A stretch of 64,000 bases of DNA, from the NCBI RefSeq assembly GCF_004342485.1, contig NZ_SMBU01000002.1, positions 1 to 64,000 on the forward strand, given 5' to 3'. The notes beneath the pieces are model-generated. The model saw nothing but the letters and a program-made list of their open reading frames with translations. It searched no databases and had not been told where the DNA came from. The stretch is from Roseateles saccharophilus (GTDB taxonomy: Bacteria; Pseudomonadota; Gammaproteobacteria; Burkholderiales; Burkholderiaceae_C). Both the position numbers and the translations under genes were made by a program. Shown in pieces: positions 11,424-30,164 of the stretch. Every line of letters starts with the position of its first letter. Positions within the stretch are counted from its first letter, which is position 1.

Positions 11424-12044
11424 ATGACTACGACGCTTTCCACCCCCGCCACGTCCTCAGCCGCGGCCGACGTGCCGCTGTGGCGGCCCGCGCTGACGCT
11501 GTTTGTCGTGCTGAGCCTCGTCACGGGCCTGGCCTATCCCCTCGTCGTCACCGGCGTTGCGCAGGCGCTGTTCCCCGACCAGGCCAACGGCAGTCTCGTC
11601 GTGAGGGACGGCAAACCCGTCGGTTCGACACTGATCGGCCAGACCTTCGCCGACCCCGGCCACTTCTGGAGCCGCCCCTCGGCCACCGGCCCCATGCCCT
11701 ACAACGCAGGCAACTCGTCGGGCTCCAACCTCGCGCCGACGGCGCCGGCCCTGGCCGATGCCGTCAAGGCGCGCGTCGAGGCGCTGCGCGCGGCCGACCC
11801 GGGCAACACCCGGCCGGTGCCGGTCGACCTCGTGACCACCTCGGCCAGCGGCCTGGACCCCCACATCAGCCGCGCCGCGGCCGACTACCAGGTCGCCCGC
11901 ATCGCGCGTGCGCGCGGCCTGCCGGCCGCGAAGCTGCAGGCCCTCGTCGAGCAGCACACCGAGGGGCGTTGGCTGGGCTTCGTCGGCGAGCCGCGCGTGA
12001 ACGTGCTGGCGCTGAACCTCGCGCTCGACGCCGCCGAGAAATGA
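11424..12044 (+). CDS. kdpC: Potassium-transporting ATPase subunit C
   Basis: A 206-residue subunit with one N-terminal membrane span (about residues 24-44, [20 protein letters not shown]) and a periplasmic domain. Family motifs: [42 protein letters not shown] and [11 protein letters not shown]. KdpC stabilises the pump and increases its nucleotide affinity. The RBS is AGGAGA. The protein is a normal length, and the gene is separated from kdpB by the porin gene. Confidence 0.97.
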
Positions 12045-12089
12045 GGCATGCGAGGATGGCGTGATGCTCATGCCCCGCCTGATTTCGAC

Positions 12090-13061
12090 ATGCTGATCAA
12101 CAGTGCCGTGTACCACGATGGCCGCATCGTTGCAGAGCCGGGCCTGGACGGCGTTTCCGAGGCGCTGGAGTCCCGGTCCGGCTTCGTCTGGATCGCGTTG
12201 CGCGACCCGACCGACGACGAGCTGGGCCTGCTGCAGCGCGAGCTGGACCTGCCGCCGCTGGCCGTCGAGGACGCCCGCAAGGGCCACCAGCGCCCCAAGG
12301 TCGAGGAGTACGGCGACATGCTGTTCGCCGCCATGCACCTGCTCGAGGTCGGCGCGGACGGCAACCTCGAGGTCGGCGAGGTGCATGTCTTCGTCGGCCC
12401 GCGTTTCGTCGTCTCGGTGCGGCACAACAGCCAGCAGGGCTTTCTCGGCGTGCGCGGCCGGGCCGAGCGCGAGCCGCATCTGCTGGGCCAGGGGCCGGGT
12501 TTCGTCTTCTACGCGCTGATGGACGCGGTGGTGGACCGCTACTTTCCGCTCATCGACGCCGTCGAGGCCGAGCTGGAGCAGGTCGAGGAGAGCATGTTCC
12601 AGCCCGGCCAGGACCGCCAGGCCGTCGTGCAGAAGCTGTTCGGCCTCAAGCAGCGCCTGGCCACGCTGCGCCACGCGGTCACGCCGCTGCTGGAGGTGAC
12701 GTCCAAGCTGCACGGCGGGCGCGTGCCGGCCGTCTGCATGGCCTTGCAGGACTATTTCCGCGACGTCTACGACCACCTGCTGCGCATCCAGGGCAGCATC
12801 GACGCCGCGCGCGAAACCATCATCGCCGCGACCCAGGTCAACCTGACCCTGGTCACCATCGACGAGTCCCTCGTCACCAAGCGCCTGGCGGCCTGGGCCG
12901 CGATCTTCGCGGCGTCCACCGCGCTGGCCGGCGTCTGGGGCATGAACTTCGAGAAGATGCCCGAGCTGAAATGGGCCTTCGGCTACCCCATGGCGCTGGG
13001 GGCGATCCTGCTCGTCAGCGGCGCGCTGTATTGGCGCTTCAAGCGACTCGGTTGGCTATGA
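12090..13061 (+). CDS. corA: CorA-family magnesium/cobalt transporter in the kdp operon
   Basis: A 323-residue CorA channel: long N-terminal cytoplasmic domain rich in acidic helices, then two C-terminal membrane helices with the signature GMN in GVWGMNFEKMPEL and a short RFKRLGWL tail. CorA forms pentamers that pass Mg2+ or Co2+ across the inner membrane. The ATG at 12090 gives MLINSAVYHDG, the usual family N-terminus; an in-frame ATG at 12048 is possible. It lies between kdpC and kdpD, an uncommon place. Its stop codon lies in a TATGA that is repeated 225 bases later at the kdpD start. Confidence 0.93.
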   Translation: MLINSAVYHDGRIVAEPGLDGVSEALESRSGFVWIALRDPTDDELGLLQRELDLPPLAVEDARKGHQRPKVEEYGDMLFAAMHLLEVGADGNLEVGEVHVFVGPRFVVSVRHNSQQGFLGVRGRAEREPHLLGQGPGFVFYALMDAVVDRYFPLIDAVEAELEQVEESMFQPGQDRQAVVQKLFGLKQRLATLRHAVTPLLEVTSKLHGGRVPAVCMALQDYFRDVYDHLLRIQGSIDAARETIIAATQVNLTLVTIDESLVTKRLAAWAAIFAASTALAGVWGMNFEKMPELKWAFGYPMALGAILLVSGALYWRFKRLGWL

Positions 13062-13286
13062 ACCTAGACCCGGCAGCTGGGCACGCCCGCTGGTCTGGCG
13101 CTTCAGGCCGCTGGCAGCGTTGCTCCTCCTCGTGGACACGAGCCCACGGCGTCGTCGCGCCTTGCCGGCGACCTGCTTCGCCATGCCAGGGCCGGACGCC
13201 CTGGCCTTCGCCAGGCACAAACAGTCCTCAGGACTGTTCGTGTCCGGGCTCAGCCCCTCGGACGCGCCCAACTGCCGGGTCTAGGT
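13062..13286. mobile_element. 225-bp MITE-like element between corA and kdpD
   Basis: Non-coding segment with near-perfect terminal inverted repeats: the left end ACCTAGACCCGGCAG is repeated in reverse at the right end (15 of 15, then about 13 of 17 further matches). It is flanked by direct repeats TATGA at 13057-13061 and 13287-13291, the expected target duplication. Internal palindromes include GCCAGGGC/GCCCTGGC (13185-13192 and 13198-13205) and AACAGTCCT/AGGACTGTT (13220-13238). It encodes nothing convincing. Confidence 0.8.
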
Positions 13287-13287
13287 T

Positions 13288-15969
13288 ATGACCGACACCC
13301 GCCCCGACCCCGACGCGCTGCTCGCCAAGGTCCAGCGCGACGAAGCCGCCGCCAGACGTGGCCGGCTGAAGATCTTCTTCGGTGCCAATGCCGGCGTGGG
13401 CAAGACCTTCGCGATGCTGGCGGCGGCGCATGCTGCGAAGCTGCAGGGCCGGTCCGTGCGCATCGGCGTCGTCGAGACCCATGGCCGCGCCGACACCGAG
13501 GCCATCGCCCGCGACCTGCTGCGCATTCCGCTGAAGGACGTTGCCGGGCGTGGCCAGGCGCTGCGCGAATTCGATCTCGACGCGGCGCTGGCCTGGGGCG
13601 CGGCCGAACCCGGCGGCGTGCTGCTGCTGGACGAACTGGCCCACAGCAACGCGGCGGGTTCGCGTCACGCCAAGCGCTGGCAGGACGCGCAGGAGCTGCG
13701 CGAGGCCGGCGTGGAGGTCTGGACGACGTTGAACGTGCAGCACCTGGAGAGCCTGAACGATGTCGTCGGCGGCATCACCGGCATCCGCGTCTGGGAGACG
13801 CTGCCCGACAAGGTTTTCGACGAGGCCGACGAAGTCGTCGTCGTGGACCTGCCGCCCGACGAGCTGCTGCAGCGGCTCAAGGAGGGCAAGGTCTACCTGC
13901 CGGCCCAGGCCGAGCGTGCGGCCAGGAACTTCTTCCGCAAGGGCAATCTGCTGGCGCTGCGCGAGCTGGCGCTGCGCCGCACGGCCGACCGCGTGGACGA
14001 CCAGATGCAGGCCTACCGGCGCGAGCACACCCAGCTGGCCCAGGGCGCGGTCTGGCCGAATCGCGAGTCGCTGCTGGCCTGCGTCGGCCCCGGCGTCAAC
14101 AGCGACAAGGTCGTGCGCAGCGCTGCGCGCCTGGCTCAGCAGCTCGGCCTGGACTGGCATGCCGTGCACGTGCAGACGGCGCGGGCGCTGGGCGACGCGG
14201 ACCGCCAGCATGTGCAGCGCGCGCTGGAGCTGGCCAAGTCGCTGGGCGCGCGCGCGACGGTGCTGTCCGCACCCGAGGTGGGCGCGGCCCTGGTGGGCTA
14301 TGCGCGCGAGCACAACCTGGCCCGCCTCGTCGTCGGCCGGCGCGAGAACGCCTGGCGCTGGCCGGGCCGGCTCTCGCTGGCCGAGACGCTGAACCGCCTG
14401 GCCGACGACATGGACGTGCTGCAGGTCGCGCTGCCGACGGCAGCGACCGCCGCGCGCGGCGCCGAGCCGCAGCCGCGCATGCCGCACGGCCTGCTCGCGC
14501 CGCAGATGCTGCGCGGCTTTGCGGCGGCCCTGGCCGGGGTCGCGCTGACGACGGCCATCAACGGCCTGCTGCTGAATCTCATCGCGGTGACCAATATCGC
14601 GATGCTCTACCTGCTCAATGTCGTCGGCGTGGCCTTGCGCTTCGGCCGCGCGCCGGCGGCGCTGGCCGCGCTGCTGGGCGTCGCGGCCTTCGACTTCTTC
14701 TTCGTCGACCCGCGTTGGTCCTTCGCCGTCAGCGACGCCCAATACCTCGTCACCTTCGCCGTGCTGCTGCTGGTGGGCCTGGTCATCGGCCAGCTCGCGG
14801 CCGGCCTGCAGGCCCAGGCCCGCGCTGCCCGGGAGCGCGAGCGCCGCGTGCGCGGGCTGTACGCTATGTCGCGCGACCTCGGCGCCGCCCTCGTGCCCGA
14901 GCAGGTGGCCGAGATCGGCACGCGCTTCCTGCGCGCGGAGTTTGGCGTCGCGTCCGCCGTGCTGGCGCCGCCGCTGGGCGCCGCGCCCGACCACGAGGTG
15001 CTGGCGGTTCTTCCCGGTGGCAGCGCCCAGCCCGACCTCGGCGTCGCGCAATGGGCCTTCGACCACGGCCAGCCGGCCGGGCAGGGCACCGACACCCTGC
15101 CGGCCAGCCCCTGCCTGATGCTGCCGCTGACGGCACCGATGCGGCTGCGCGGCGTGCTGGCCGTCGACGGCCAGGGCCGGCGCTGGCTGCCCGACGAGCG
15201 CGAGCTGCTGGACACCTGCGCGGCCCTGCTGGCCATCTCGCTGGAGCGCATCCATTACATCGAGGTGGCGCAGCAGAGCACGCTGCAGATCGAGAGCGAG
15301 CGCCTGCGCAACTCGCTGCTGACGGCCATCTCCCACGACCTGCGCACGCCGCTGGCCGCCCTCGTCGGCCTGGCCGACGCGCTGAAGCTGACGCCGCTGG
15401 ACCCGCCCCAGGCCGAGGTGGCCGACGCGGTGCGCCGCTCGGCGCTGCGCATGAGCGCGCTGGTGGCCAACCTGCTGGACATGGCGCGGCTGCAGTCCGG
15501 TGCCGTGCAGCTCAACCGCCACTGGCTGCCGCTGCAAGAGGTCGTCGGCAGCGCACTCGCCAGTCTCGACGAGGCGCTGGCCGGCCGCGACGTGGCGGTG
15601 GACCTGCCGGCCGAGCTGCCCCTCATCGAGCTGGACGCCGTGCTCGTCGAGCGCGTGCTCGTCAATCTGCTGGAGAACGCGGCCAAGTACGCGCCCGGCC
15701 CCATCCGCGTGGCCGCGCGCACGGCGGGGCGGCAGGTCGAGATCGACGTCAGCGACAGCGGCCCCGGATTTCCGGCCGGCCGCGAGGCCCGGCTCTTCGA
15801 CAAGTTCGAGCGCGGCGACCGCGAGAGCGCCACGCCCGGCGTGGGCCTGGGCCTGGCCATCTGCAAGGCCATCGTCGAGGCGCATGGCGGGCGCATCAGC
15901 GCCCACAATGCCGCGACCGGCGGTGCCTGCGTGCGAGTGGAACTCCCCCTCGGCCAGCCGCCGACATAA
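13288..15969 (+). CDS. kdpD: Osmosensitive K+ channel sensor histidine kinase KdpD
   Basis: An 893-residue membrane sensor. The order is: KdpD N-terminal domain with a Walker-like FGANAGVGKTFAML and DELAHSNAAGSRHAKRWQD (about residues 25-230), USP-like domain (about 255-375), four closely spaced membrane helices (about 405-510), a GAF-like region (about 530-650), HisKA with the phospho-acceptor ISHDLRTPLAALVG (near 677), and HATPase with NLLENAAKYAP and GVGLGLAICKAI. It phosphorylates KdpE in response to K+ limitation. ATG 13288 lies in a duplicated TATGA: before the insertion upstream the start probably overlapped the corA stop as ATGA. The ribosome-binding site is now the end of the inserted element, GGGTCTAGGTT, which is a weak site. 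Confidence 0.97.
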   Translation: MTDTRPDPDALLAKVQRDEAAARRGRLKIFFGANAGVGKTFAMLAAAHAAKLQGRSVRIGVVETHGRADTEAIARDLLRIPLKDVAGRGQALREFDLDAALAWGAAEPGGVLLLDELAHSNAAGSRHAKRWQDAQELREAGVEVWTTLNVQHLESLNDVVGGITGIRVWETLPDKVFDEADEVVVVDLPPDELLQRLKEGKVYLPAQAERAARNFFRKGNLLALRELALRRTADRVDDQMQAYRREHTQLAQGAVWPNRESLLACVGPGVNSDKVVRSAARLAQQLGLDWHAVHVQTARALGDADRQHVQRALELAKSLGARATVLSAPEVGAALVGYAREHNLARLVVGRRENAWRWPGRLSLAETLNRLADDMDVLQVALPTAATAARGAEPQPRMPHGLLAPQMLRGFAAALAGVALTTAINGLLLNLIAVTNIAMLYLLNVVGVALRFGRAPAALAALLGVAAFDFFFVDPRWSFAVSDAQYLVTFAVLLLVGLVIGQLAAGLQAQARAARERERRVRGLYAMSRDLGAALVPEQVAEIGTRFLRAEFGVASAVLAPPLGAAPDHEVLAVLPGGSAQPDLGVAQWAFDHGQPAGQGTDTLPASPCLMLPLTAPMRLRGVLAVDGQGRRWLPDERELLDTCAALLAISLERIHYIEVAQQSTLQIESERLRNSLLTAISHDLRTPLAALVGLADALKLTPLDPPQAEVADAVRRSALRMSALVANLLDMARLQSGAVQLNRHWLPLQEVVGSALASLDEALAGRDVAVDLPAELPLIELDAVLVERVLVNLLENAAKYAPGPIRVAARTAGRQVEIDVSDSGPGFPAGREARLFDKFERGDRESATPGVGLGLAICKAIVEAHGGRISAHNAATGGACVRVELPLGQPPT

Positions 15970-15984
15970 GCAGGAGAGGGCAGG

Positions 15985-16683
15985 GTGGGCGCCGCACGCG
16001 TGTTGATGATCGAGGACGAGCCGGAGATCCGGCGTTTCGTGCGCATGGCGCTGGAAAGCGAGGGCATCGAGGTGTTCGAGGCGGCCACGCTGGCCCGCGG
16101 CCTCATCGATGCGGCCACGCGCCGCCCCGAGCTCGTCGTGCTGGACCTGGGCCTACCCGACGGCGATGGCCTGGACTTCATCCGCGAGTTCCGCGGCTGG
16201 TCGCAGGCGCCCGTGCTGGTGCTGTCGGCCCGCGAGGGCGAGGAGCGCAAGGTGCAGGCGCTGGATGCCGGCGCGGACGACTACCTCGTCAAGCCCTTCG
16301 GCGTGGCCGAGCTGCTGGCCCGCGTGCGCGTGCAGTTGCGCCGTCACGGTGGTGGTGGCAACGATGCCGACCCGGTGCTGCGCTTCGGCGACATCGCCGT
16401 GGACCGTGCGCTGCGCAGCGTCACGCGCACGACACCTGAGGGCAGCGAGGAACTGCACCTGACGCCCATCGAATACCGGCTGCTGCAGGAGCTCGCCGCC
16501 GCGCCGGGCCGCGTGTTGACCCACCAGCATCTGCTGAAGGCCGTTTGGGGCCCCGGCCACGCCGATGACGTGCATTACGTGCGCGTGCACATGGCCAACC
16601 TGCGCAAGAAGCTGGAGGCCGACCCCAACCGGCCGCAGTGGCTGCTGACCGAGGCCGGGGTGGGCTACAGGCTCAAGACCTGA
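15985..16683 (+). CDS. kdpE: Response regulator KdpE
   Basis: A 232-residue OmpR-family regulator. The receiver domain has the acidic pair in MIEDEPEIR, the phosphorylated Asp in VVLDLGLPDGDG and the Lys of YLVKPFG; the C-terminal winged helix includes LTPIEYRLLQELAA and MANLRKKLE, ending in GVGYRLKT. It activates kdp transcription when phosphorylated by KdpD. The start is GTG 15985, preceded by AGGAGAGGG, 15 bases after the kdpD stop. Candidate binding repeats lie at 6541-6578. Confidence 0.97.
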   Translation: MGAARVLMIEDEPEIRRFVRMALESEGIEVFEAATLARGLIDAATRRPELVVLDLGLPDGDGLDFIREFRGWSQAPVLVLSAREGEERKVQALDAGADDYLVKPFGVAELLARVRVQLRRHGGGGNDADPVLRFGDIAVDRALRSVTRTTPEGSEELHLTPIEYRLLQELAAAPGRVLTHQHLLKAVWGPGHADDVHYVRVHMANLRKKLEADPNRPQWLLTEAGVGYRLKT

Positions 16684-16816
16684 GGGCTGGCGCCGCGGCC
16701 GCCTGTTGTGCTTTCCGGTGCGCAGGGCCAGACTCCGGCGACGCTCCCATCAGACAGCTCCCGCGGCGAGGCGGAGCGACCCACCGCCGCCAACCTCTGG
16801 CCTTGGAGGCTCCCTC

Positions 16817-17275
16817 ATGAGTCGCTCGACTGAACACCTGAAGCGTCTGCTGTTTCCGCTCGTGCTCGCCCTGTCGGGCTGCGCCGCCACGCCTCTCGCG
16901 CGGGAGGTGGTGGTCAGCAAGGACGCTCCGGCCCCGATCGGCCCCTATTCGCAGGCCGTGCGGGCGGGCAATCTGCTGTTCCTGTCCGGGCAGGCCGGCC
17001 TGGACCCGAAGACCGGCCAGCTGAGCGGCGGGTCGATCGAGGAGCAGACGACAACGGCCCTCGAGAACCTGAAGGCGGTGCTGGCCGCCAACAACATGAC
17101 GATGGCGGACATCGTGTCGACGACGGTCTATCTGAAGGACATCGGCGACTTCGGCAAGATGAATGCGGTGTATGCCCGATTCTTCCCGGACAAGCCGCCG
17201 GCCCGGGCCACGATCCAGGCGGCCCGCCTGCCCCGGGATTCGCTCGTCCAGATATCGGCCATCGCAGCGCGTTGA
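16817..17275 (+). CDS. RidA-family protein with a lipoprotein signal
   Basis: A 152-residue protein made of an N-terminal lipobox signal (LVLALSGCAAT, Cys near residue 21) and a complete Rid/YjgF domain (APAPIGPYSQAVRAGNLLF, then SGQAGLDPKTGQL and PARATIQAARLPRDSLVQI). RidA hydrolyses reactive enamine/imine intermediates made by PLP enzymes and is normally cytoplasmic, so membrane anchoring in the periplasm is unusual. By eye, the arginine equivalent to R105 of E. coli RidA is kept (PAR) but the E120 position is Gln, so classical imine deaminase activity is doubtful. It is a separate transcription unit after kdpE, with a 133-base gap in which I see no feature. Confidence 0.88.
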   Translation: MSRSTEHLKRLLFPLVLALSGCAATPLAREVVVSKDAPAPIGPYSQAVRAGNLLFLSGQAGLDPKTGQLSGGSIEEQTTTALENLKAVLAANNMTMADIVSTTVYLKDIGDFGKMNAVYARFFPDKPPARATIQAARLPRDSLVQISAIAAR

Positions 17276-17297
17276 GGGCGGCCGGGTCGCGTCCGGC

Positions 17298-17546
17298 TTG
17301 CCGCCGGACTGGGCGGACTATGCGCAGGCCCAGCTCGACTGGACGCTGGGATCACCGGCGCCGTCGGCAGCGACACGGGCGAGGGCATCACCTTCGCCCC
17401 CGGGGCCCGACGAGGCGCAGTGGCGCTGGGTGGAGCAGTGGCTGCCGCATTCGGCGTGGATGCTGCTGGCCGCCCTGTCGATGGAGCAGCAACGCAGCGG
17501 GCAGGGGGCTGCCGTGGCGCATCGATTGGCGGCAGTCAAGCCCTGA
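17298..17546 (+). CDS. Possible small hypothetical protein
   Basis: An open frame of about 82 residues from TTG 17298, with codon third positions as GC-rich as neighbouring genes and a plausible soluble composition including WVEQWLPHSAWMLLAALSM. It follows the RidA-like gene by 22 bases on the same strand. No motif is recognised, the start is weak and the frame continues upstream inside the RidA-like gene, so it may be spurious. Confidence 0.35.
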   Translation: MPPDWADYAQAQLDWTLGSPAPSAATRARASPSPPGPDEAQWRWVEQWLPHSAWMLLAALSMEQQRSGQGAAVAHRLAAVKP

Positions 17547-17554
17547 CCCCGTCG

Positions 17555-17602
17555 CCCGCATTTGCGGGGATGCGCATTGGTTTCAAATTGATACAGTTGA
17601 AA
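17555..17602. promoter_or_regulatory. Hairpin and AT-rich dyad upstream of the ThDP operon
   Basis: In the 287-base gap before the ThDP gene, CCCGCA/TGCGGG (17555-17568) forms a small hairpin without a T-run. TTTCAA at 17581-17586 and TTGAAA at 17597-17602 form a dyad with 16-base centre spacing in an unusually AT-rich stretch. The dyad is operator-like, but no matching -35/-10 pair was found. Confidence 0.25.
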
Positions 17603-17833
17603 TCACTGAGCAGTTGCCGATGGCATTCATGCACAGGCAACAGATGTCGCAGGGCCTCGCGCCCTAAGCGCACGCAGGGGGACAAGGCCGTCCGGACAAA
17701 CGTCCATGGCCACTCGCGAGCCCGCTTTGGCGGGTTCAATCCGTTCCCGATGCCGTGCGGTACCGCGGTTGGCATGGCGCTCCAGCAGCGCCGGCTGACG
17801 TGCCACGCTTGGCATCCCTTGCCTGCTTGTCAC

Positions 17834-19678
17834 GTGGAATCGAACACTGCTCTTGCCCCGGCCCGCGCCTGGGCGACCGAACCGGCCCGAGATTGCGCTC
17901 CGCGCGACGCCGCCGACCTGATCGTCGACGCGCTGGCCGCCCTGGGCGTCGAGTACGTCTTCGGCGTGCCGGGCGGCGCCGTCGAGCCGCTCTACAACGC
18001 GCTGGCACGCAGCGCCCGCCGCGGCGGGCCGCAGGCCATCGTCGCCCGCAACGAGCAGGGCGCAGCCTATATGGCCGACGGCTATGCCCGCGAGACCGGC
18101 CGCCTGGGCGTGTGCATCGCCACCTCGGGGCCGGGCGCCACCAATCTCATCACCGGCGTGGCCTGTGCCTACGACAACAACGTGCCCATTCTGGTCATCA
18201 CCGGCCAGCCGCCGATCAAGAACTTCGGCAAGGGCGCGCTGCAGGAGTCGAGCTGCACGGGCATCAATACCGTGGCGATGTTCCGGCCCTGCACGCGCTA
18301 CAACTCGCTGGTCTCGCATGCCGAGCAGTTGCCCACCAAGCTCTTCAATGCGCTGATGCAGGCCCAACGTGCGCCCAGCGGCCCCAGCCATCTGTCCATT
18401 CCCGTCGATATCCTGCGCGAGCCGCTGCGGCCCGGCATGGAGGCGCCCGACTTCGCCGGCCTGCTGCGCCGTGCGCCGGCCCTGGTCGACCTGCCGGCCG
18501 TGCGCCAGCTCGCGCGGCTGCTGTTCTCGGCGCGCCAGCCGGTCTGGCTGATCGGCGACGGCTGCGGCGACGCGGCCAACGAGCTGATGCAGCTCGTGCA
18601 GCGCAGCGACGGCAGCTTCATCACGACGCCCGACGGCAAGGGCTTCATCAATCCGCGCCACCCGCGATACCGAGGCGTGTTCGGCTTCGGCGGGCATGCC
18701 AGCGCGGCCGAGCTGCTGCAGGCCGAGCCCGACCTCGTCATCGCGCTGGGCACGGGCTTCGGCGAGTTCAACAGCGGCGGCTGGTCCTCCACGTTGCTGA
18801 ACAGCCGCCTCGTCCATGTCGACGACAGCGACGAGAACCTGATGCGCTCACCGATGGCGCGGCTGCATGTGCGCGGCCACATCAAGTCGGTCTGCGAGCA
18901 ATTGCTGGCGCTGCTGGCCCCGTCGCACAACGGCCAGGAGGCGCAGCTGCTGCCCTTCCTGCACCCGCAGGTGGCGCGCCTGGCCTACGAGGCCATGGTC
19001 GACAGCCCCGAGGCGCTGCGCAGCGACAGCGCGCCGGTCAAGCCGCAACGCCTCGTCGCCTGCTTGAGCGAGCGCTGCCCGCCACAGACGCGTTTCGTCG
19101 CCGACGCCGGCAACAGCGCCGCCTGGGCGGTGCACTACCTCGCGCCGCGCGACCAGCGCAGCGCGCGCCTGCCCGGCAGCGCCTTCCTGCCTGCGGGCCA
19201 GGAGAGGCGCACGGGCAGCTCCAGCTGGCTGCGCGTGACGATGGACTTCGCGCCCATGGGCTGGGCCATCGGCTCGGCCGTGGGCATCGCGATGGCCAAT
19301 CGCCGCTGCCCGGTCGTCTGCCTGACGGGCGACGGCAGCTACTTGATGAACGGCCAGGAGATCACGGTGGCCGCCGAGCTGGGCCTGCCGGTGCTCTACG
19401 TCGTGCTCAACGACGGCGCGCTGGGCATGGTCAAGCACGGCCAGCGTCTGGCCGGCGCCGAGCCCATCGGCTTCCAGCTGCCCAAGGTTGACTTCGCCGC
19501 GATGGCCGCGTCCATGGGCATCCCCGGCCACGTCATCCGAACGCCGCAGGAGCTGGACGCGCTGGACTTCGACGCGCTGCTGTCGCGCGCCGGGCCGACG
19601 TTGCTGGACGTGCGCATCGACGGCGAGGAAGTGCCGCCGATGAACCTGCGCATGCGCACGCTCGGGACCGCACGATGA
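17834..19678 (+). CDS. Thiamine-diphosphate-dependent enzyme, acetolactate-synthase-like
   Basis: A 614-residue protein of the pyruvate oxidase/acetohydroxyacid synthase superfamily. The N-terminal pyrimidine-binding domain has FGVPGGAVEPLYN, the activating Glu in ARNEQGAAYMADGYA and SGPGATNLITG; the middle domain follows at about residues 215-350; the C-terminal domain has the ThDP/Mg2+ motif GDGSYLMNGQEITVAAEL ending in LNDGALGMVKHGQ, where the usual second Asn is Asp. The last 100 residues resemble catalytic AHAS subunits, but no regulatory ilvH-like partner is present. Instead it is fused by ATGA overlaps to two citrate-synthase-fold genes. It presumably decarboxylates a 2-oxo acid or cleaves/ligates next to a carbonyl; the substrate is unknown. 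GTG 17834 is preferred; an in-frame ATG at 17774 is possible. Confidence 0.88.
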   Translation: MESNTALAPARAWATEPARDCAPRDAADLIVDALAALGVEYVFGVPGGAVEPLYNALARSARRGGPQAIVARNEQGAAYMADGYARETGRLGVCIATSGPGATNLITGVACAYDNNVPILVITGQPPIKNFGKGALQESSCTGINTVAMFRPCTRYNSLVSHAEQLPTKLFNALMQAQRAPSGPSHLSIPVDILREPLRPGMEAPDFAGLLRRAPALVDLPAVRQLARLLFSARQPVWLIGDGCGDAANELMQLVQRSDGSFITTPDGKGFINPRHPRYRGVFGFGGHASAAELLQAEPDLVIALGTGFGEFNSGGWSSTLLNSRLVHVDDSDENLMRSPMARLHVRGHIKSVCEQLLALLAPSHNGQEAQLLPFLHPQVARLAYEAMVDSPEALRSDSAPVKPQRLVACLSERCPPQTRFVADAGNSAAWAVHYLAPRDQRSARLPGSAFLPAGQERRTGSSSWLRVTMDFAPMGWAIGSAVGIAMANRRCPVVCLTGDGSYLMNGQEITVAAELGLPVLYVVLNDGALGMVKHGQRLAGAEPIGFQLPKVDFAAMAASMGIPGHVIRTPQELDALDFDALLSRAGPTLLDVRIDGEEVPPMNLRMRTLGTAR

Positions 19679-20469
19679 CGCAAACCTTGACGACGCGCAT
19701 CTGGCGCGAGGAGGCCGAGCCCGGCAATGCCTTCGCGGCCCGCGCGGCCTTCTGCCACGGCTACGACGTCTTCGGCGAGATGCTGGGCCGGGCGCGCTGG
19801 GTGGACATGCTGTGGCTGCTGTTCCGCGGCGACGTGCCGCCGCCGGAGCAGGCCGCGTTGCTGGAAGACCTGGCTGTGGCGCTGGCCAACCCGGGGCCGC
19901 GCGATCCGGCCGTTCATGCCGCGATGTGCGCCGGCACCGGCGGCTCCACGGCGGCGGCGAGCCTGATGGCGGCGCTGGCGGTCGGTGCCGGCCAGCAGGG
20001 CGGTGCGCGCGAGGTCTTCCATGCGATGGCGCTCTGGCAGCGCTGCGGCACGGACCTGGCCGCCTGGGCGCAGGTGCTGGCCGCGCCGGCCGAGTCGGTG
20101 GCCAGCATCTGGCCGGACTTTGAGCACGCACCCGGCTTCGACCCCAATGCCTCGGCCGCCGGCCTGACCGTGCTGCAGACGCTGGCGCACCTGGCGCGCG
20201 GTGGCGTGGGCCATCGGCTCGGCTGGCTGGACAGGCAGCGGGCGGTGCTGGAGGGCCTGGCCGCTGCGCCGCTGGCCATGACGGGCGTCGCGGCCGCCGC
20301 CCTGTCCGACCTGGGCCTGACGCCCGATCAGGGCGAGATACTTTTCCTGCTGCTGCGCCTGCCGGGCGCAGCGGTGCATGCGCTGGAGCAGCGCGCCCTG
20401 GGGCCGAAGCACTTCCCGTTCTTCGAGCTGGACCTGTTGAACGACCCCGTCGACGAGGTGGCCGCATGA
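19675..20469 (+). CDS. Citrate-synthase-fold protein, citryl-CoA-lyase-like (first of a pair)
   Basis: A 264-residue protein resembling the short citrate synthase relatives called citryl-CoA lyases, which cleave or form a C-C bond in a CoA ester. Recognisable parts are TRIWREEAEPGN at the start, RWVDMLWLLFRGDVP, VHAAMCAGTGGSTAAASLMAA and GQQGGAREVF. By eye, the last corresponds to the HGGA motif of citrate synthase, with the catalytic His replaced by Gln; the His in AVHAAM may fill the first active-site position. It is translationally coupled on both sides (ATGA at 19675-19678 and 20466-20469), which suggests a fixed ratio with its neighbours. The reaction is unassigned. Confidence 0.75.
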   Translation: MTQTLTTRIWREEAEPGNAFAARAAFCHGYDVFGEMLGRARWVDMLWLLFRGDVPPPEQAALLEDLAVALANPGPRDPAVHAAMCAGTGGSTAAASLMAALAVGAGQQGGAREVFHAMALWQRCGTDLAAWAQVLAAPAESVASIWPDFEHAPGFDPNASAAGLTVLQTLAHLARGGVGHRLGWLDRQRAVLEGLAAAPLAMTGVAAAALSDLGLTPDQGEILFLLLRLPGAAVHALEQRALGPKHFPFFELDLLNDPVDEVAA

Positions 20470-21278
20470 ACGGTCCGGCACTGCTGCGGCGCAATGCCGG
20501 CCGCCTCGAGACCCGCGCCGGCAAGGCCTTCGTCGGCACGCGGGCGGTGTTCCGCGGCCAGGACCTGCACCAGGACCTGCGCGATGCCGACTGGGTCGAC
20601 CTCTATCTGCTGTCGATCACGGGCCGCCGCTTCGACGCGCCGGCGCTGCGCCTCTTCCATGCCATGTGGGTCTGCACGAGCTACCCGGATGCGCGGCTTT
20701 GGAACAACCGCGTGGCGGCCCTGGCCGGCAGCGCGCGCAGCACGCCGGCCCTCGGGCTGTCGGCGGCGCTCGGCATGTCCGAGGCGGTGGTCTACGGCGG
20801 CCATCCCTGCGTGCGCGCCATCGACTTCCTGATCGGTGCGCAACGCCGCGCCGCGTCGGGTGAGCCTTTGGCCAGCCTCGTCGAACAGGAGCTCGCGCAG
20901 CGCCGCATCTACGGCTATGGCCGGCCCATCCACGCCACCGACGAGCGCCTGCCCTGGCTGCTGAGCCTGGCCCGCGACCTGGGGTTGGCTGGCGGCCCCC
21001 ACCTGGCGCTCGCCCACGAGGTGGAGCGGCTGCTCGTGGCCCGCGACGGCCGGCTGAAGATGAACTACGCGGCGCTGACGGCGGCCCTGGCCGCGGACCT
21101 GGGCCTGTCGGTGGCGGAGTTCCACCATTTCCAGGTGCCGATGCTGCTGGCGGGCATGACGCCCTGCTACATCGAGGCCGCCGAGCGGCCGGCCGGCGCG
21201 CTGTTCCCGCTCTCCTGCGAGCACATCGCCTACGAGGGCGTCGAGCGGCGGCCCTGGCCGGGCGTTCAGAAACGGTAG
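20466..21278 (+). CDS. Citrate-synthase-fold protein (second of a pair)
   Basis: A 270-residue citrate synthase relative, more complete at the C-terminus than its upstream partner. DARLWNNRVAALAGSARST, the block GYGRPIHATDERLPWLL (equivalent to the GFGH...DPR region) and the C-terminal HFQVPMLLAGMTPCYIEAAE followed by HIAYEGVERRPWPG match citrate synthase large-domain landmarks. By eye, the HGGA histidine is Tyr (VYGGH) and the NVDF aspartate region reads MNYAAL, so canonical citrate synthase chemistry is unlikely by this subunit alone. Two related non-identical subunits side by side suggest a heterodimer. Its 3' end overlaps the convergent TonB receptor gene by 13 bases. Confidence 0.75.
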   Translation: MNGPALLRRNAGRLETRAGKAFVGTRAVFRGQDLHQDLRDADWVDLYLLSITGRRFDAPALRLFHAMWVCTSYPDARLWNNRVAALAGSARSTPALGLSAALGMSEAVVYGGHPCVRAIDFLIGAQRRAASGEPLASLVEQELAQRRIYGYGRPIHATDERLPWLLSLARDLGLAGGPHLALAHEVERLLVARDGRLKMNYAALTAALAADLGLSVAEFHHFQVPMLLAGMTPCYIEAAERPAGALFPLSCEHIAYEGVERRPWPGVQKR

Positions 21279-23377
21279 CTGGCCTGGGCCGACAGCGAGC
21301 GGCGCGCCATGGGCAGGTCGTTCGCGATGCCCGCGCTGGGCAGGCTTGGCTCGCGCACGTCGGCATCGAAGGCGTTGAGCAGGCTGAAGGACAGGTCCCA
21401 GCCGCTGTGGGCCAGCGCGGTCCGCAGCGTCAGGTCCAGCGTCGTGTAGTCGGGCACCGGCGGGCGCATGTCGCCGAAGGCGCGCATGCGCTTGGTAACG
21501 CGGTTGAGCGTGCCGCTGAGCGTGGAGCCGCCGGCAAACGACCAGTCCAGCCGGGCGTTCAGGTGCTGGTGCGGCGCATAGCCGGCGTCGACCCGGTTGA
21601 GTTCGTTGGTGGATCGCTGGTAGGCGTAGCTGCCGCTGAAGCGCAGGTCGACCCGCGGGTCCCAGACCCATTCGATCTCGGCGCCGCGGCCGTGCTGGGT
21701 GCCCTCGTTGCGGAAGGTTGCGCCCGGTGCCGGCGCCGGGTTGGGCGTGGTCTTGATGATGTCTTCCATCGCGTAGCGGAAGACATTGAAGTTGAGCTGC
21801 AGTTCGCGGCCCGCATGCCACTGCAGCACCGCCTCCAGTGTGCGCATGGTTTCTGGCTGGATCGTCGGGTTGCCGCTGGCCACCGGGTTGACGCCGTACT
21901 GCTCGTTGAACGAGGGCGCCCGGAAGGCGCTGCCGTAGAGCAGCTTGGCGGTCAGGTCGAGGCTGGCGTCCCAGACCAGGGCGGCGCGCGGATTGGTGGT
22001 GCGGCCGAAGTCGGAATAGCGGTCCTGCCGCACGCCGGCCGTCAGCGTCCAGTCCTGGGCGAAGCTCCACTCGTCCTGCACATAGGCGTAGTCGACGCGG
22101 CGGCGGTGCGGCGCCAGGAAGGAGTCCTCGACCGGCGCCTCGACCAGTTGGCCGCCGGGCACGGGCACCGGCACGCCGGTTAGGGGGCCCGAAGTGATGA
22201 CGGTGAAGTTCTTGAACTCCTGCGTGCGGTAGAGGTCCAGGTCGTCATGGCCCAGGCCGATGCGCCATTGGTGGCCGGCCCAGCCGCCGTAGGTGGCGGC
22301 CGCGGAGAGCCGCAGCTGTCGCTCCCAGGTGTTGGGCGAACCGAAGACGCCGTTCGGGAAGCTGCCGCCGAAGGCGCCGGGCGGAAAGAGCTGCACCGGC
22401 ACGGACAGCTTCTGGATGTAGTTCAGGTAGCTGCCGCCCAAGCTCAGGCGCCAGCCCGGCGAGAGGTCGACGTCGTTGACGCCGGTGTCGAGCTCCGCGC
22501 GCGTCGAGCCCATGCGGCCGACCGGGTCGAGGGCGCCGGCGATGCCCGCCCCCGTGCCCACGTCGCTGCGCTGCTTGTAGCCGGCATGCAGACGCCATTT
22601 GGCGTAGCCCAGCTCCAGGCCGCCGTCGATGGCGTGGTAGCCCGTGTTGACCGGCCCCGGCGCCAGGCTGGCGTGCGTGCCGAACACGGTGTCCAGGCCG
22701 GTCTGGGCGTCCGATGCGACGACCTCCTTGAAGCCGTCGCCGCGCCCGACGCGCAGGAAGGCCGCCAGGTCCAGCGGCCCGGCCTTGCCGCCGTGCTGAA
22801 GCCAGGCGTCGCGGGTCCGGAAGGAGCCGGCGTGCAGGCCCAGCTCGGTGCCGGGGGTGTCCTGTACGCCCTTGGTGATGATGTTGATGATGCCGGCGTA
22901 GGCGTCTGCGCCGTAGAGGGCCGAGCCCGGGCCGCGGATGACCTCGATGCGCGCGATGTTCTGCACCGGCAGGCCGCCCCAGATGATGCCGCGGCTGCCG
23001 ACATAGAGCGTCGTCATCGGCACGCCGTTCTGCAGCATCAGCACCTGCGGGTTGAAGTCGCTGGCCACGCCGCGGATCAGGTACTGCGGCGAGTAGGCGC
23101 CGTTGCTGCGGCTCACATGCAGGCCGGGCACGGTCTCCAGCACCTCGTCGAGATCGTTCGCGCCCATCGTCGCGATGTCCTGCGCCGTGATCACCGTGGC
23201 CACCGCCGGCGCCCGGCGCAGGGCTTGCGGCCGGCCCGTGGCGATGCTGATGGTCGTCTTGTCGGCGTAGACCTGGGCGAGCTCGTCTTCGTCGTTCGGC
23301 GCCTGCGCATAGGCCGCCGACTGCGCCGCCATCCAGCAGGCGCCGGCCAAACTCACCGAACGGAACACAAAACGCAT
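21266..23377 (-). CDS. TonB-dependent outer membrane receptor
   Basis: A 703-residue outer membrane receptor with signal peptide MRFVFRSVSLAGACWMAAQ ending near AYAQA. The plug domain has ATVITAQDIATMGANDLDEV, LETVPGLHVSRS, a QYLIRGV block, and IEVIRGPGSALYGADAYAG followed by IINIITKG; a 22-strand barrel follows, ending in ASYRF with terminal Phe. The plug resembles receptors for vitamin B12, siderophores or other small chelates; the ligand cannot be read. It is divergent from the binding protein at 23538 (160-base intergenic region) and convergent with the ThDP operon. A TonB box is not obvious, though DKTTISIATG near residue 40 is a candidate region. Confidence 0.93.
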   Translation of the reverse strand: MRFVFRSVSLAGACWMAAQSAAYAQAPNDEDELAQVYADKTTISIATGRPQALRRAPAVATVITAQDIATMGANDLDEVLETVPGLHVSRSNGAYSPQYLIRGVASDFNPQVLMLQNGVPMTTLYVGSRGIIWGGLPVQNIARIEVIRGPGSALYGADAYAGIINIITKGVQDTPGTELGLHAGSFRTRDAWLQHGGKAGPLDLAAFLRVGRGDGFKEVVASDAQTGLDTVFGTHASLAPGPVNTGYHAIDGGLELGYAKWRLHAGYKQRSDVGTGAGIAGALDPVGRMGSTRAELDTGVNDVDLSPGWRLSLGGSYLNYIQKLSVPVQLFPPGAFGGSFPNGVFGSPNTWERQLRLSAAATYGGWAGHQWRIGLGHDDLDLYRTQEFKNFTVITSGPLTGVPVPVPGGQLVEAPVEDSFLAPHRRRVDYAYVQDEWSFAQDWTLTAGVRQDRYSDFGRTTNPRAALVWDASLDLTAKLLYGSAFRAPSFNEQYGVNPVASGNPTIQPETMRTLEAVLQWHAGRELQLNFNVFRYAMEDIIKTTPNPAPAPGATFRNEGTQHGRGAEIEWVWDPRVDLRFSGSYAYQRSTNELNRVDAGYAPHQHLNARLDWSFAGGSTLSGTLNRVTKRMRAFGDMRPPVPDYTTLDLTLRTALAHSGWDLSFSLLNAFDADVREPSLPSAGIANDLPMARRSLSAQASYRF

Positions 23378-23537
23378 GGTCGGTTTCTCCGAGGTGGACG
23401 GTGGTGGGCGCATATTGTGGGGGGCGCCGAAGCGGGGGGGGCGAGGAATTGCGCAGGAATTGAGGCGCGGCGGCGGCGCCCGGGTCTGCATAATCGCCGC
23501 CGTTCCGCGTCCGGTGCTCCAACGACATTGACCTCAC

Positions 23538-24521
23538 TTGACTGACCACGGCCGATCCTCAGACGCCGCCCGTCGCGCCTTGTTGCGGCGGGCCCTAGGC
23601 GGTGCCGTGGCATTGGCAGGGCTGGGGGCCCGCCCGGCCTTCGCGGCCGAGGCCGCGCGCGGCATGGCCGTCGTCTACCCCGACCTGGGCGAGCCCTTCC
23701 GCCAGGTCTTCACGACCATCATCGAAGGCATCGAGGACAAACTTGGCGGCTCTGTCATCAGCATCGCGGTGGCCAACAACGCCAACCCGGCCCAGGTCGC
23801 CGACGACATCCGCAAGCGCGACGTGCAGGTGCTGATCGGCCTCGGCCGTGGCGGCATGCGGGTCGCGGCCGCGATGGCGGGCGAGCTGGCGGTGCTGGTG
23901 GGCTGCGTGGTGTCGGTGCAGGAGTCCGAGGCCCGCGCCTTCCCCGTCCACACGCTGGCGCCCGACCCGGCCCTGCTGCTGACGCGGCTCAAGCGGCTGC
24001 GGCCGGCCACGCGGCGGGTGCAGCTGGTCTACGACCCCAAGCTCAACGGCTGGCTGGTGCGCCTGGCGCGCGAGGCGGCCAAGGCCGAGGGCATGGAGCT
24101 GCAGGCGCTGGAGGCCGCCGACCCGGCCGAGGCTCTGCGCGGCTACACCCAGCTGCTGGCCGCCGCCGACCCCGCGCACGACGCGCTGTGGCTGCCGCAG
24201 GACCCGACCACGGTGGACGACAACGTGGTGCTCTCGCTGGTGCTGCGCGAGGGCTGGAGCCGCAACATCGCCGTGATCTCCAGCCACCTGGCCCATGTGA
24301 AGCGGGGCGCGCTGTTCTCGCTCTACCCGGACAACCACGAGCTTGGGCGCACGCTGGCCGCATCGGCGCAGCGGCTGGCGGCTGCGCCCAAGGCGGCCGC
24401 GGGCGGCGTGCTGCCTTTGCGCCAGGCGCGTGCTGCCATCAATATCCGTACCGCTGCGCATCTGGGCATCGATGTGGCCGCGGTGCAGTCCGGATTCGAT
24501 CTGGTCTATCCCTCCAACTGA
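23538..24521 (+). CDS. Periplasmic ABC-type substrate-binding-like protein
   Basis: A 327-residue exported protein with an N-terminal signal (ARRALLRRALGGAVALAGLG, cleavage near AFA; the twin Arg could mean Tat export). The mature part has the alternating alpha/beta pattern of ABC_sub_bind (PF04392-type) proteins: VQVLIGLGRGGMRVA, RRVQLVYDPKLNGWLV and ALWLPQDPTTVDDNVV. No ABC permease or ATPase gene is adjacent. Such orphan binding proteins next to a TonB receptor and a sensor kinase probably present a ligand to the kinase; this is inference. The start TTG 23538 is tentative. Confidence 0.78.
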   Translation: MTDHGRSSDAARRALLRRALGGAVALAGLGARPAFAAEAARGMAVVYPDLGEPFRQVFTTIIEGIEDKLGGSVISIAVANNANPAQVADDIRKRDVQVLIGLGRGGMRVAAAMAGELAVLVGCVVSVQESEARAFPVHTLAPDPALLLTRLKRLRPATRRVQLVYDPKLNGWLVRLAREAAKAEGMELQALEAADPAEALRGYTQLLAAADPAHDALWLPQDPTTVDDNVVLSLVLREGWSRNIAVISSHLAHVKRGALFSLYPDNHELGRTLAASAQRLAAAPKAAAGGVLPLRQARAAINIRTAAHLGIDVAAVQSGFDLVYPSN

Positions 24522-24592
24522 GGTCCAGCTTGACGCCACCCTATCCCGCCGACAGCCAGCCGCCCAGCCTCCTGCGGGAGGAGGGCGTGCCC

Positions 24593-26162
<1,570 letters not shown>

Positions 26163-26191
<29 letters not shown>

Positions 26192-27277
26192 CGGCGCCCC
26201 GCCGCGCGTCCAGCCGGTCGCGCAGCCACAGGCCCGGCCGCTCCACGGCGTGATGCAGCGCGGCGTCCACCAACAGAATGGCCGCCGCGTAGACCGCGAA
26301 CAGCGCCGGCCCGTGCAGCGGCAGCACCGGCGCCAGCCATTCGTGCACGGCGTGCATGGCCAGCTTGTGGCTCAGGTAGAGGCTGTACGAGATGGCCGCG
26401 ACCCCGCCTGCGCCCGGCACCGCCCGGCGGCCCAGCAGGCCCTGCGGCGAGGTGGCAGACAGGGGCAGCAGCCCGAAGCCGAACGACAGCAGCGGCCAGC
26501 CGACGGCGTTGGCGAACAGGTTCGTGCGGTCGCGGAACAGCCAGAAGGCCAGCGCCGCGATGGCCAGGCCGGCCAGCATCAGCGGCGTCGAGCGGGCCTG
26601 CAGGCGCTGCCATGCCCCGAGCCGGTAGACGCGCAGAGCCGCGAGCGCGATGCCCATCAGCAGGCCGTCCAGGCGCATCCAGGTCGGGTAGTAGATGTCC
26701 TCGATGAACCAGTTGCGCGGCGGCTGATAGGCGTCGTCGTGCAGCCACACGCCCGCGCGCAACGCGATGCCCAGCAGCACGAGACAGGCGCACAGGCCGA
26801 TGAAGCGGGGGGCTGAGGGTCGGCGCGTGGCCCACAAGGCCAGCAGCGGGAAGAGCAGATAGAAATGCTCCTCGACGCACAGCGACCAGGCATGCGAGAA
26901 GGCGGGGTTGTGGCCGTAGTCGATGAAGAGGTTCAGCGTGAGGGGCGCGAACTGCCACGCGGCCGCCATCCCCGGCACCTCGCGCAGCGCGGGGAACAGC
27001 AGGTAGACCGCCAGCACGGCGGCGAAGGCCGGCAGGATGCGCCAGGCCCGGCGCCAGTAGAAGGCCCGCAGCGAGGTCGGCTCGCCGCGCCGCAGCGCGC
27101 GCAGCAGCTGGGAGCCGATCAGGAAGCCGCTGAGCACGAAGAAAATGTCCATGCCGGCCCAGCCGAAGCGCGACAGCCAGGCGAAGTTCGCCCCAGGCCG
27201 CCGGCGAGGAAGGAGTGGAAGAGCATCACCTAGACGATGGCGATGCTGCGCAGCAGGTCGAGGCCGGGAAACGATGC
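26163..27277 (-). pseudogene. Acyltransferase-3 family protein, inactivated
   Basis: The 5' part encodes the family N-terminus FPGLDLLRSIAIV, then an in-frame TAG where the family has Trp, then VMLFHSFLAGGLG, after which one G is missing from a GGGG run (near 27193) and the sequence continues in another frame as ANFAWLSRFGWAGMDIFFVL. From there the protein is intact for about 340 residues with some ten membrane spans, the HAWSLCVEEHFYLLFPL motif and a final HHAVERP. Intact members transfer acyl groups to cell-surface sugars. Two independent lesions argue for a pseudogene rather than one sequencing error. The 5' limit is uncertain. The 3' end overlaps the convergent kinase gene by 29 bases. 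Confidence 0.8.
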
Positions 27278-27322
27278 CCCTCGTCCAGTCCCGCCTCCGC
27301 TGAACGCGGGCAGGCCTGACCG

Positions 27323-27412
27323 GTCCCCCGCGGGGGACGGCGAAGCGTGCGGCGTTGAGCCGCACGCATATCGCCACAGGCGGGCCGGCTTGGGAGCGGC
27401 CCGGCGCTCGGC
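27323..27412. repeat. Dispersed intergenic repeat, copy A
   Basis: Read on the minus strand, 27412-27380 matches 34435-34467 at 30 of 33 positions (begins GCCGAGCGC, ends in CCCGC). The same region holds a perfect 16-base palindrome GTCCCCCGCGGGGGAC at 27323-27338, and copy B also has a CCCCGCGGGG palindrome beside the shared block. The 178 bases between the broken acyltransferase and aconitase contain nothing else I can support. Confidence 0.55.
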
Positions 27413-27455
27413 CCGCAAACTCAAACGGCCCGCCACCGACTTTGCATGTAGCGAC

Positions 27456-30164
<2,709 letters not shown>

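Follow-up and report, generated by a model that had tools for sequence, protein, structure and literature searches.

The stretch of DNA analysed here, called the window in what follows, comprises 64,000 nucleotides of Roseateles saccharophilus (contig NZ_SMBU01000002.1 of assembly GCF_004342485.1, positions 1 to 64,000 of the forward strand), and the subject of this report is a group of six adjacent genes within it. Three of these lie on the forward strand and are joined by two ATGA overlaps. The first (17834-19678) begins with GTG, with a true start perhaps further in, and encodes a thiamin diphosphate (ThDP)-dependent enzyme that resembles acetohydroxyacid synthase (AHAS) but is not the AHAS of the organism; the second (19675-20469) and third (20466-21278) encode two citrate-synthase-fold proteins, here called CSL1 and CSL2. 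Beside this triplet, on the reverse strand (21266-23491), is the gene for a TonB-dependent receptor (TBDR) with plug and barrel, for which a signal-peptide-like stretch suggests a translation start at 23377. The forward strand then carries genes for a periplasmic binding protein of the PF04392 type (PBP; 23538-24521, TTG start) and for a histidine kinase with HAMP, HisKA and HATPase domains (24593-26191, with ATG at 24593 and the domain scan made on the frame from 24521). An earlier note, made from the letters of the window, had described three genes with ATGA overlaps, and their open reading frames (ORFs) were found just where it placed them; it had also called them an orphan operon, a description that has to be dropped because a TBDR, a PBP and a kinase or cyclic di-GMP (c-di-GMP) protein adjoin the triplet and recur with it. 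As judged from the gene sequences and their company, the product of the triplet is probably a small signal (or metallophore) derived from a thioester, which the TBDR, the PBP and the kinase would sense.

The ThDP protein has the features expected of the ThDP-dependent carboligase/decarboxylase superfamily, namely three TPP_enzyme Pfam domains (N, M and C), a catalytic Glu and a GDG...N motif. When the relatives are aligned, the Glu (E74) is present in all 82 rows that have a letter at that position and GDG in all 83 rows, which confirms the ThDP landmarks claimed earlier. The protein shares its three-domain layout and catalytic Glu with AHAS, but it scores 305 bits against TIGR00118, where the cut-off is 538. 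Of 59 families 25 were listed, and every acetolactate-synthase cut-off among these (TIGR00118, PRK) is missed. The AHAS of the organism is encoded elsewhere by a separate gene (L161), whose 1196 bits exceed the cut-off of 1035, so that the ThDP protein is not the ordinary valine/isoleucine AHAS of the genome, an identity that the earlier note had named as fatal to its own proposal. The protein also differs from the ScyA-related TPP enzymes (NF035927), with a score of 235 against a cut-off of 1000. Its nearest solved relatives are BbmA (302 bits) and CsmA (256 bits; structures 8x3x and 8x3z), and a literature search gave no paper on the products of these two enzymes among the matches listed. 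A glycine, Gly536, occupies one position in 82 of the 83 rows and aligns with a Gly of BbmA that is Phe in 8xod. In AHAS this position is held by Trp, and with Gly there it is plausible that the ThDP enzyme accepts a larger substrate than AHAS does.

The two short proteins that follow were modelled singly with AlphaFold, with mean pLDDT (the predicted local confidence) of 90.5 for CSL1 and 84.0 for CSL2, and the best Foldseek match of both models is the citryl-coenzyme A (CoA) lyase 6hxp, with E values of 6.2e-8 and 1.3e-8, respectively. Both models have the citrate-synthase fold of about 260 residues that is found in citryl-CoA lyase, in agreement with the earlier description of two short citrate-synthase relatives. 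The two proteins are also homologous to each other (hhalign E 2.4e-13), which makes them paralogues as the earlier note had supposed. Their likeness to citryl-CoA lyase in fold and length is offset by several differences. The CSLs are two tandem paralogues rather than one protein, and their scores with the citryl-CoA-lyase models of the NCBIfam PRK06224 group are at best 59.4 against a cut-off of 261 (CSL1) and 48.6 against 193 (CSL2). The gathering cut-off of PF00285 is likewise missed, with 15.8 against 27 for CSL1 and no match for CSL2, and the sole PF00285 match of the genome lies at C2:147879-148988.

A further difference concerns the catalytic His, His and Asp of citryl-CoA lyase, whose positions were mapped by sequence alignment with six other lyase-family proteins rather than from model coordinates. 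In the window proteins, the His of the HGGA motif is aligned with Gln in CSL1 and with Tyr in CSL2, exactly as the earlier note had read them. Among 94 CSL1 sequences this first-His position is variable (S 22, L 17, H 16, Y 15, N 12, Q 4), the stretch of the second His is a gap, and the Asp position is Ser or Thr in 69. A His three residues past the PGF motif (DPH) occurs in 67 of the 94, with Asn in the window, and a different placement of the gap could therefore supply a partner for the second His. CSL1 keeps R228 (82/94), H235 (93/94) and E238 (94/94). The losses in CSL2 are more uniform: among 99 relatives the first His is replaced by Tyr (Tyr110) in 98 and the second by Arg (Arg153) in all 99, and the Asp position (Ala202) is Ala or Gly in 79, while R77, W79, N81, R153, D159, E160, R161 and N200 are each found in 99/99. 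By this alignment neither CSL retains the His/His/Asp set, and with the widely missed cut-offs this leads us to reject the identity of plain citryl-CoA lyase; the citryl-CoA-lyase-like catalysis proposed earlier finds no support in the form in which it was put. Of the six other short lyase-family proteins, L159 alone has the full set and serves as the reference lyase; in L030 and L164-L167 the second His is kept but the first His and the Asp are both missing, and partial loss is therefore not special to the CSLs. The L164 locus also carries an AHAS-like ThDP gene, 29% identical to that of the window, about 4 kb from its lyase-family gene.

Because the conserved residues of CSL1 and CSL2 look complementary, a composite active site would fit the alignment, and this we infer with due reserve. 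When the distance matrices of ten protein pairs are compared, CSL1 and CSL2 show the highest correlation (r 0.926 over 47 loci; Mantel permutations reached the observed value in 0/500 cases for all ten pairs). Homology and distance correlation together fit a two-subunit enzyme, though they are no proof of contact.

Evidence that the six genes belong together comes from their linkage in other genomes. From 266 confirmed relatives the 80 best were kept, giving 79 loci that therefore lean towards close relatives, and the 54 of these with at least 18.5 kb were used for counting; neighbour maps came from a simple ORF picker that missed or fused some genes. In these 54 loci the ThDP gene was found in 53, CSL1 in 54, the TBDR in 51, the PBP in 37, a kinase or GGDEF protein in 45 and a short-chain dehydrogenase/reductase (SDR) in 21. 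A second set of 21 hand-picked triplet loci, scored with the same thresholds, gave TBDR 20, PBP 18, kinase/GGDEF 20 and SDR 5. This set omits L141, L151 and L155, which are long enough; the first two have the TBDR and the third lacks it, and with all three included the TBDR count becomes 22/24. Each of 20 genomes, of which 19 also contribute to the second set, supplied one control stretch on the same contig and away from the triplet, and these 20 stretches yielded TBDR 0, PBP 0, kinase/GGDEF 1 and SDR 1. The arrangement resembles an autoinduction system in that enzyme genes are linked to receptor and sensor genes, a resemblance in linkage only.

Co-occurrence across whole genomes tells the same story. 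Among 369 genomes of the class, 40 have both CSL2 and the TBDR family, 7 CSL2 only, 12 the TBDR only and 310 neither, so that the receptor accompanies CSL2 in 40/47 genomes (odds ratio 148, P 1.5e-35); three of the 47 (G130, G353 and G394) in fact carry other lyase-family proteins, and excluding them gives 40/44. CSL2 occurs with the ThDP gene in 34/47 genomes (P 7e-33), and of the 10/44 genomes that have no ThDP match at 1e-100, three (G183, G296 and G391) show a ThDP gene in the locus itself. Linkage and co-occurrence thus both exceed chance. The association extends to 13 remote (type-2) loci in which CSL2 is just 27-34% identical to that of the window: the TBDR is present in 13, CSL1 in 11, a kinase or GGDEF protein in 12, the PBP in 9 and a ThDP gene nearby in 6. 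The earlier note had proposed a gene-neighbourhood search for conservation of the triplet, and the conservation of the triplet proves to reach far past its close relatives.

Hosts include Pelomonas, Roseateles, Rugamonas, Massilia, Gallionella, Sideroxydans and Dechloromonas, and further ones are Chitinimonas, Collimonas, Pelotalea chapellei and Geobacter sp. OR-1. In four genomes outside the class of the window (L191-L194), which come from one genus and are therefore not independent, the six genes form one single-strand run in the order TBDR-CSL1-CSL2-ThDP-PBP-kinase, with ThDP proteins 37-38% identical to that of the window (the Pfam scan covers the genes of L191). With 56% identity, the Pelotalea CSL2 is closer to that of the window than are those of the remote loci in the window's own class (27-34%), and this argues that transfer of the cassette between phyla is likely, on a comparison of identities rather than a tree.

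Single members of the set can be exchanged for others. The sensors differ in type: the HAMP kinase of the window is replaced by a HAMP-kinase-receiver-Hpt-GGDEF-EAL hybrid in L029, by a HAMP-GGDEF-EAL protein in L025, by a kinase-receiver-Hpt-GGDEF-EAL protein in L141 and by a HAMP-PAS-kinase-receiver protein in L191, and in L143 the genes near the TBDR and the two CSLs include one for a DUF4154 (YfiR/HmsC-like) protein and one for a CHASE8-GGDEF-EAL protein. Five triplets without the receptor adjoin sensors of other kinds. Two of them (in L195 and L197) are followed by a giant protein with Ser/Thr kinase, AAA_16, GAF and histidine kinase domains (at 11391-17197 in L195 and 1016-6969 in L197) and then by a LuxR-type response regulator; a third (in L089) has a Ser/Thr kinase-AAA-GAF-histidine kinase-receiver giant (12130-17745) near it on the opposite strand; and in L154 and L155 the neighbours of the triplet are hybrid kinases that carry GAF or PAS domains. 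The ORF map of L196 shows a 1730-residue ORF that resembles the giants of L195 and L197. The second enzyme can change as well. L171, in which the search found no CSL, has two overlapping genes between those for the ThDP enzyme and the TBDR, one for a FabH-like synthase and one for a protein of 131 residues (L171:4694-6060, reverse strand); by eye the FabH-like protein has Cys, His and Asn at the places of the FabH triad, and the small protein matches nothing in Pfam (E 0.01) or in NCBIfam (E 1e-5). In L172, again with no CSL found, a methyltransferase takes the same place, and in L198 the genes after the triplet encode a carrier protein and an AMP-ligase. With the receptor swapped for another sensor in some loci and the CSLs swapped in two, an enzyme set beside a sensor is thus what stays mostly constant. 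As to copy number, L106 has two tandem copies of the whole triplet and L107 has the CSL1/CSL2 genes repeated beside one ThDP gene.

The steady company of TBDR, PBP and kinase or c-di-GMP protein therefore shifts the likely role of the triplet from a metabolic pathway to a sensed small molecule. The earlier note had placed the triplet in a carbon-carbon metabolic pathway; its conservation and the distinctness of the ThDP enzyme from AHAS stand, and the likely role moves to synthesis of a molecule that is sensed. In the reading that we favour, with a probability of roughly 0.55, the six genes form one make-and-sense cassette with an autoinducer-like loop. The ThDP enzyme would join units derived from 2-oxo acids to give a hydroxy-ketone or hydroxy-keto-acid, and CSL1 and CSL2, as a heteromeric thioester-handling enzyme of altered chemistry, would condense, acylate or cyclise this product with an acyl thioester; in some lineages the SDR would reduce it. 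The small product would then exit the cell and re-enter via its TonB receptor, where it would bind the PBP, and the loaded PBP would drive the membrane kinase or c-di-GMP protein.

LuxP-LuxQ and TorT-TorS are the comparison systems for a sensing loop of this kind, and the cassette matches them in that its PBP gene neighbours the gene of a HAMP kinase and no transporter genes were recognised next to it. It differs from them in its linkage to a TonB receptor and a set of enzymes, and the window kinase falls far under both cut-offs (235 against 1200 for LuxQ, 301 against 677 for TorS). The L143 locus, with its YfiR-like and CHASE8-GGDEF-EAL proteins near the CSLs, recalls the control of diguanylate cyclases by YfiR, a system that is not known to include an enzyme set or a TonB receptor. 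In the genome of the window, a single match was obtained for the TBDR (at E 1e-20) and a single one for the PBP (at E 0.001). In another genomic setting (L177 and L183), the TBDR family lies beside GGDEF or kinase genes with no triplet found, and these may be listeners that do not make the molecule.

Several observations weigh against this reading. For the cassette, no ligand, product, exporter or response regulator has been identified. Within the stretch covered, the PBP is absent from 17/54 loci and a kinase or GGDEF protein from 9/54. Eight of these nine (L063, L086, L098, L105, L107, L113, L117 and L136) show no sensor of the kinds searched for, and the ninth is L089, which has its giant kinase; L107 and L113 lack the TBDR as well, and the other six retain the TBDR or some of the other genes. 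In 12/369 genomes the TBDR family is present and CSL2 is not, 7/13 type-2 loci have no ThDP match nearby (G236 and G384 have one on another contig), and L198 has no receptor or sensor on its short contig. The distance correlations keep shared species history in them. Finally, the absence, by alignment, of the classical triad from both CSLs makes a binding or scaffold role possible for them.

The main rival is a metallophore cassette, in which the enzymes would make a hydroxy-carboxylate-type chelator, the TBDR would return its metal complex, and the PBP and kinase would report the arrival. A TonB-dependent receptor, as siderophore systems have, is present at the locus; its nearest relatives among solved structures are Cir, BtuB and the enterobactin receptors, scarce chelates are the usual cargo of TonB receptors, and Gallionella, Sideroxydans and Geobacter, all iron bacteria, are among the hosts. 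This account would call for an inner-membrane importer, and none was recognised by eye beside the window PBP, where no dedicated scan for permease or ATPase genes of ABC type was made, or within the six-gene run of L191-L194, which was viewed without gene-by-gene annotation. A simple consensus scan of two window stretches found no Fur-box-like site that stands out (best 10/19 in both, against a top of 13 among 200 shuffles), and some receptor-less forms sit with GAF kinases. We regard the metallophore as unlikely, if still the strongest of the competitors. A B12 receptor as the identity of the TBDR was also considered and rejected, with a score below the cut-off and no riboswitch found in window positions 12000-30000 or in the seven other loci scanned. 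Somewhat less probable than the metallophore is a catabolic cassette, with the TBDR, PBP and kinase sensing an environmental compound that the ThDP, SDR and CSL enzymes would degrade. Cleavage of C-C bonds is common to citryl-CoA lyases and many ThDP enzymes, and the receptor family beside sensor genes in L177 and L183 could be read in the same sense; the lack of a recognised inner-membrane importer tells against breakdown, and the variants with a FabH-like synthase, a methyltransferase or a carrier protein plus ligase suggest assembly instead.

The remaining two explanations question the chemistry or the association itself. CSL1 and CSL2 might be catalytically dead and form a metabolite-binding regulator of the ThDP enzyme, as the loss of His, His and Asp from both by alignment would allow and as the separate regulatory subunits that occur in AHAS enzymes might lead one to expect. 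A dead protein would hardly be expected to keep polar residues unchanged where the alignment places the active site, as CSL2 does (R153, D159, E160, R161 and N200, together with Y110), nor a regulator to persist in the 7/13 type-2 loci whose CSLs have no adjacent ThDP gene, and we consider this improbable. Least credible of all, on superfamily resemblance, is an ordinary acetolactate synthase with ordinary citryl-CoA lyases, linked by chance: the AHAS and the sole PF00285 match are encoded elsewhere in the genome, the curated cut-offs are missed widely, and the control-stretch counts and the co-occurrence test already contradict it.

If the make-and-sense reading is true, it adds a type of signal-making enzyme and a TonB-dependent way of hearing the signal, in a system that spans Burkholderiales, Gallionellaceae, Rhodocyclales, other proteobacteria and Geobacter relatives. 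More tentatively, and with odds that we put somewhat short of even, the cassette would define a new class of signalling in which a ThDP carboligase and a heteromeric, re-purposed citrate-synthase pair form a new type of signal synthase and the product returns by active TonB-dependent uptake to a PBP that controls kinases and c-di-GMP. Sensors of three kinds or more would go with this synthase core, and a FabH-like synthase or a methyltransferase could stand in for its second enzyme. The labels acetolactate synthase and citryl-CoA lyase, which general models would give to such genes, would then presumably have to be reassigned. The CSL pair also offers a direct test of new chemistry from an old fold, with the triad lost in both proteins by alignment and another invariant set fixed in CSL2. 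No description of the cassette was found in a literature search that covered titles and the starts of abstracts, with preprints and most subscription journals outside its reach. A Caulobacter 'citryl-CoA lyase' is the citrate lyase beta chain, entered by locus tag in iron-response tables, and the passages available from the two reports concerned gave no link to the present system (PMC11005374, PMC3751524).

A few minor observations complete the picture. Riboswitch control was considered and set aside, with no Rfam match in window positions 12000-30000 at E 0.1 and a tRNA only in the seven loci scanned, as was carriage on plasmids, CSL2 being without a match in 72,556 plasmid records. Cassettes that appear to be decaying occur in L156 (9566-12873), with the TBDR gene in separate pieces around another ORF, and in L187 (9628-11395), with a fragmented ThDP gene. 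Upstream of the ThDP gene in the window, a forward-strand gene at 16706-17275 encodes what by eye resembles a secreted or lipoprotein relative of RidA, and before it lie two forward-strand genes (13288-16683) that by eye resemble KdpD and KdpE.

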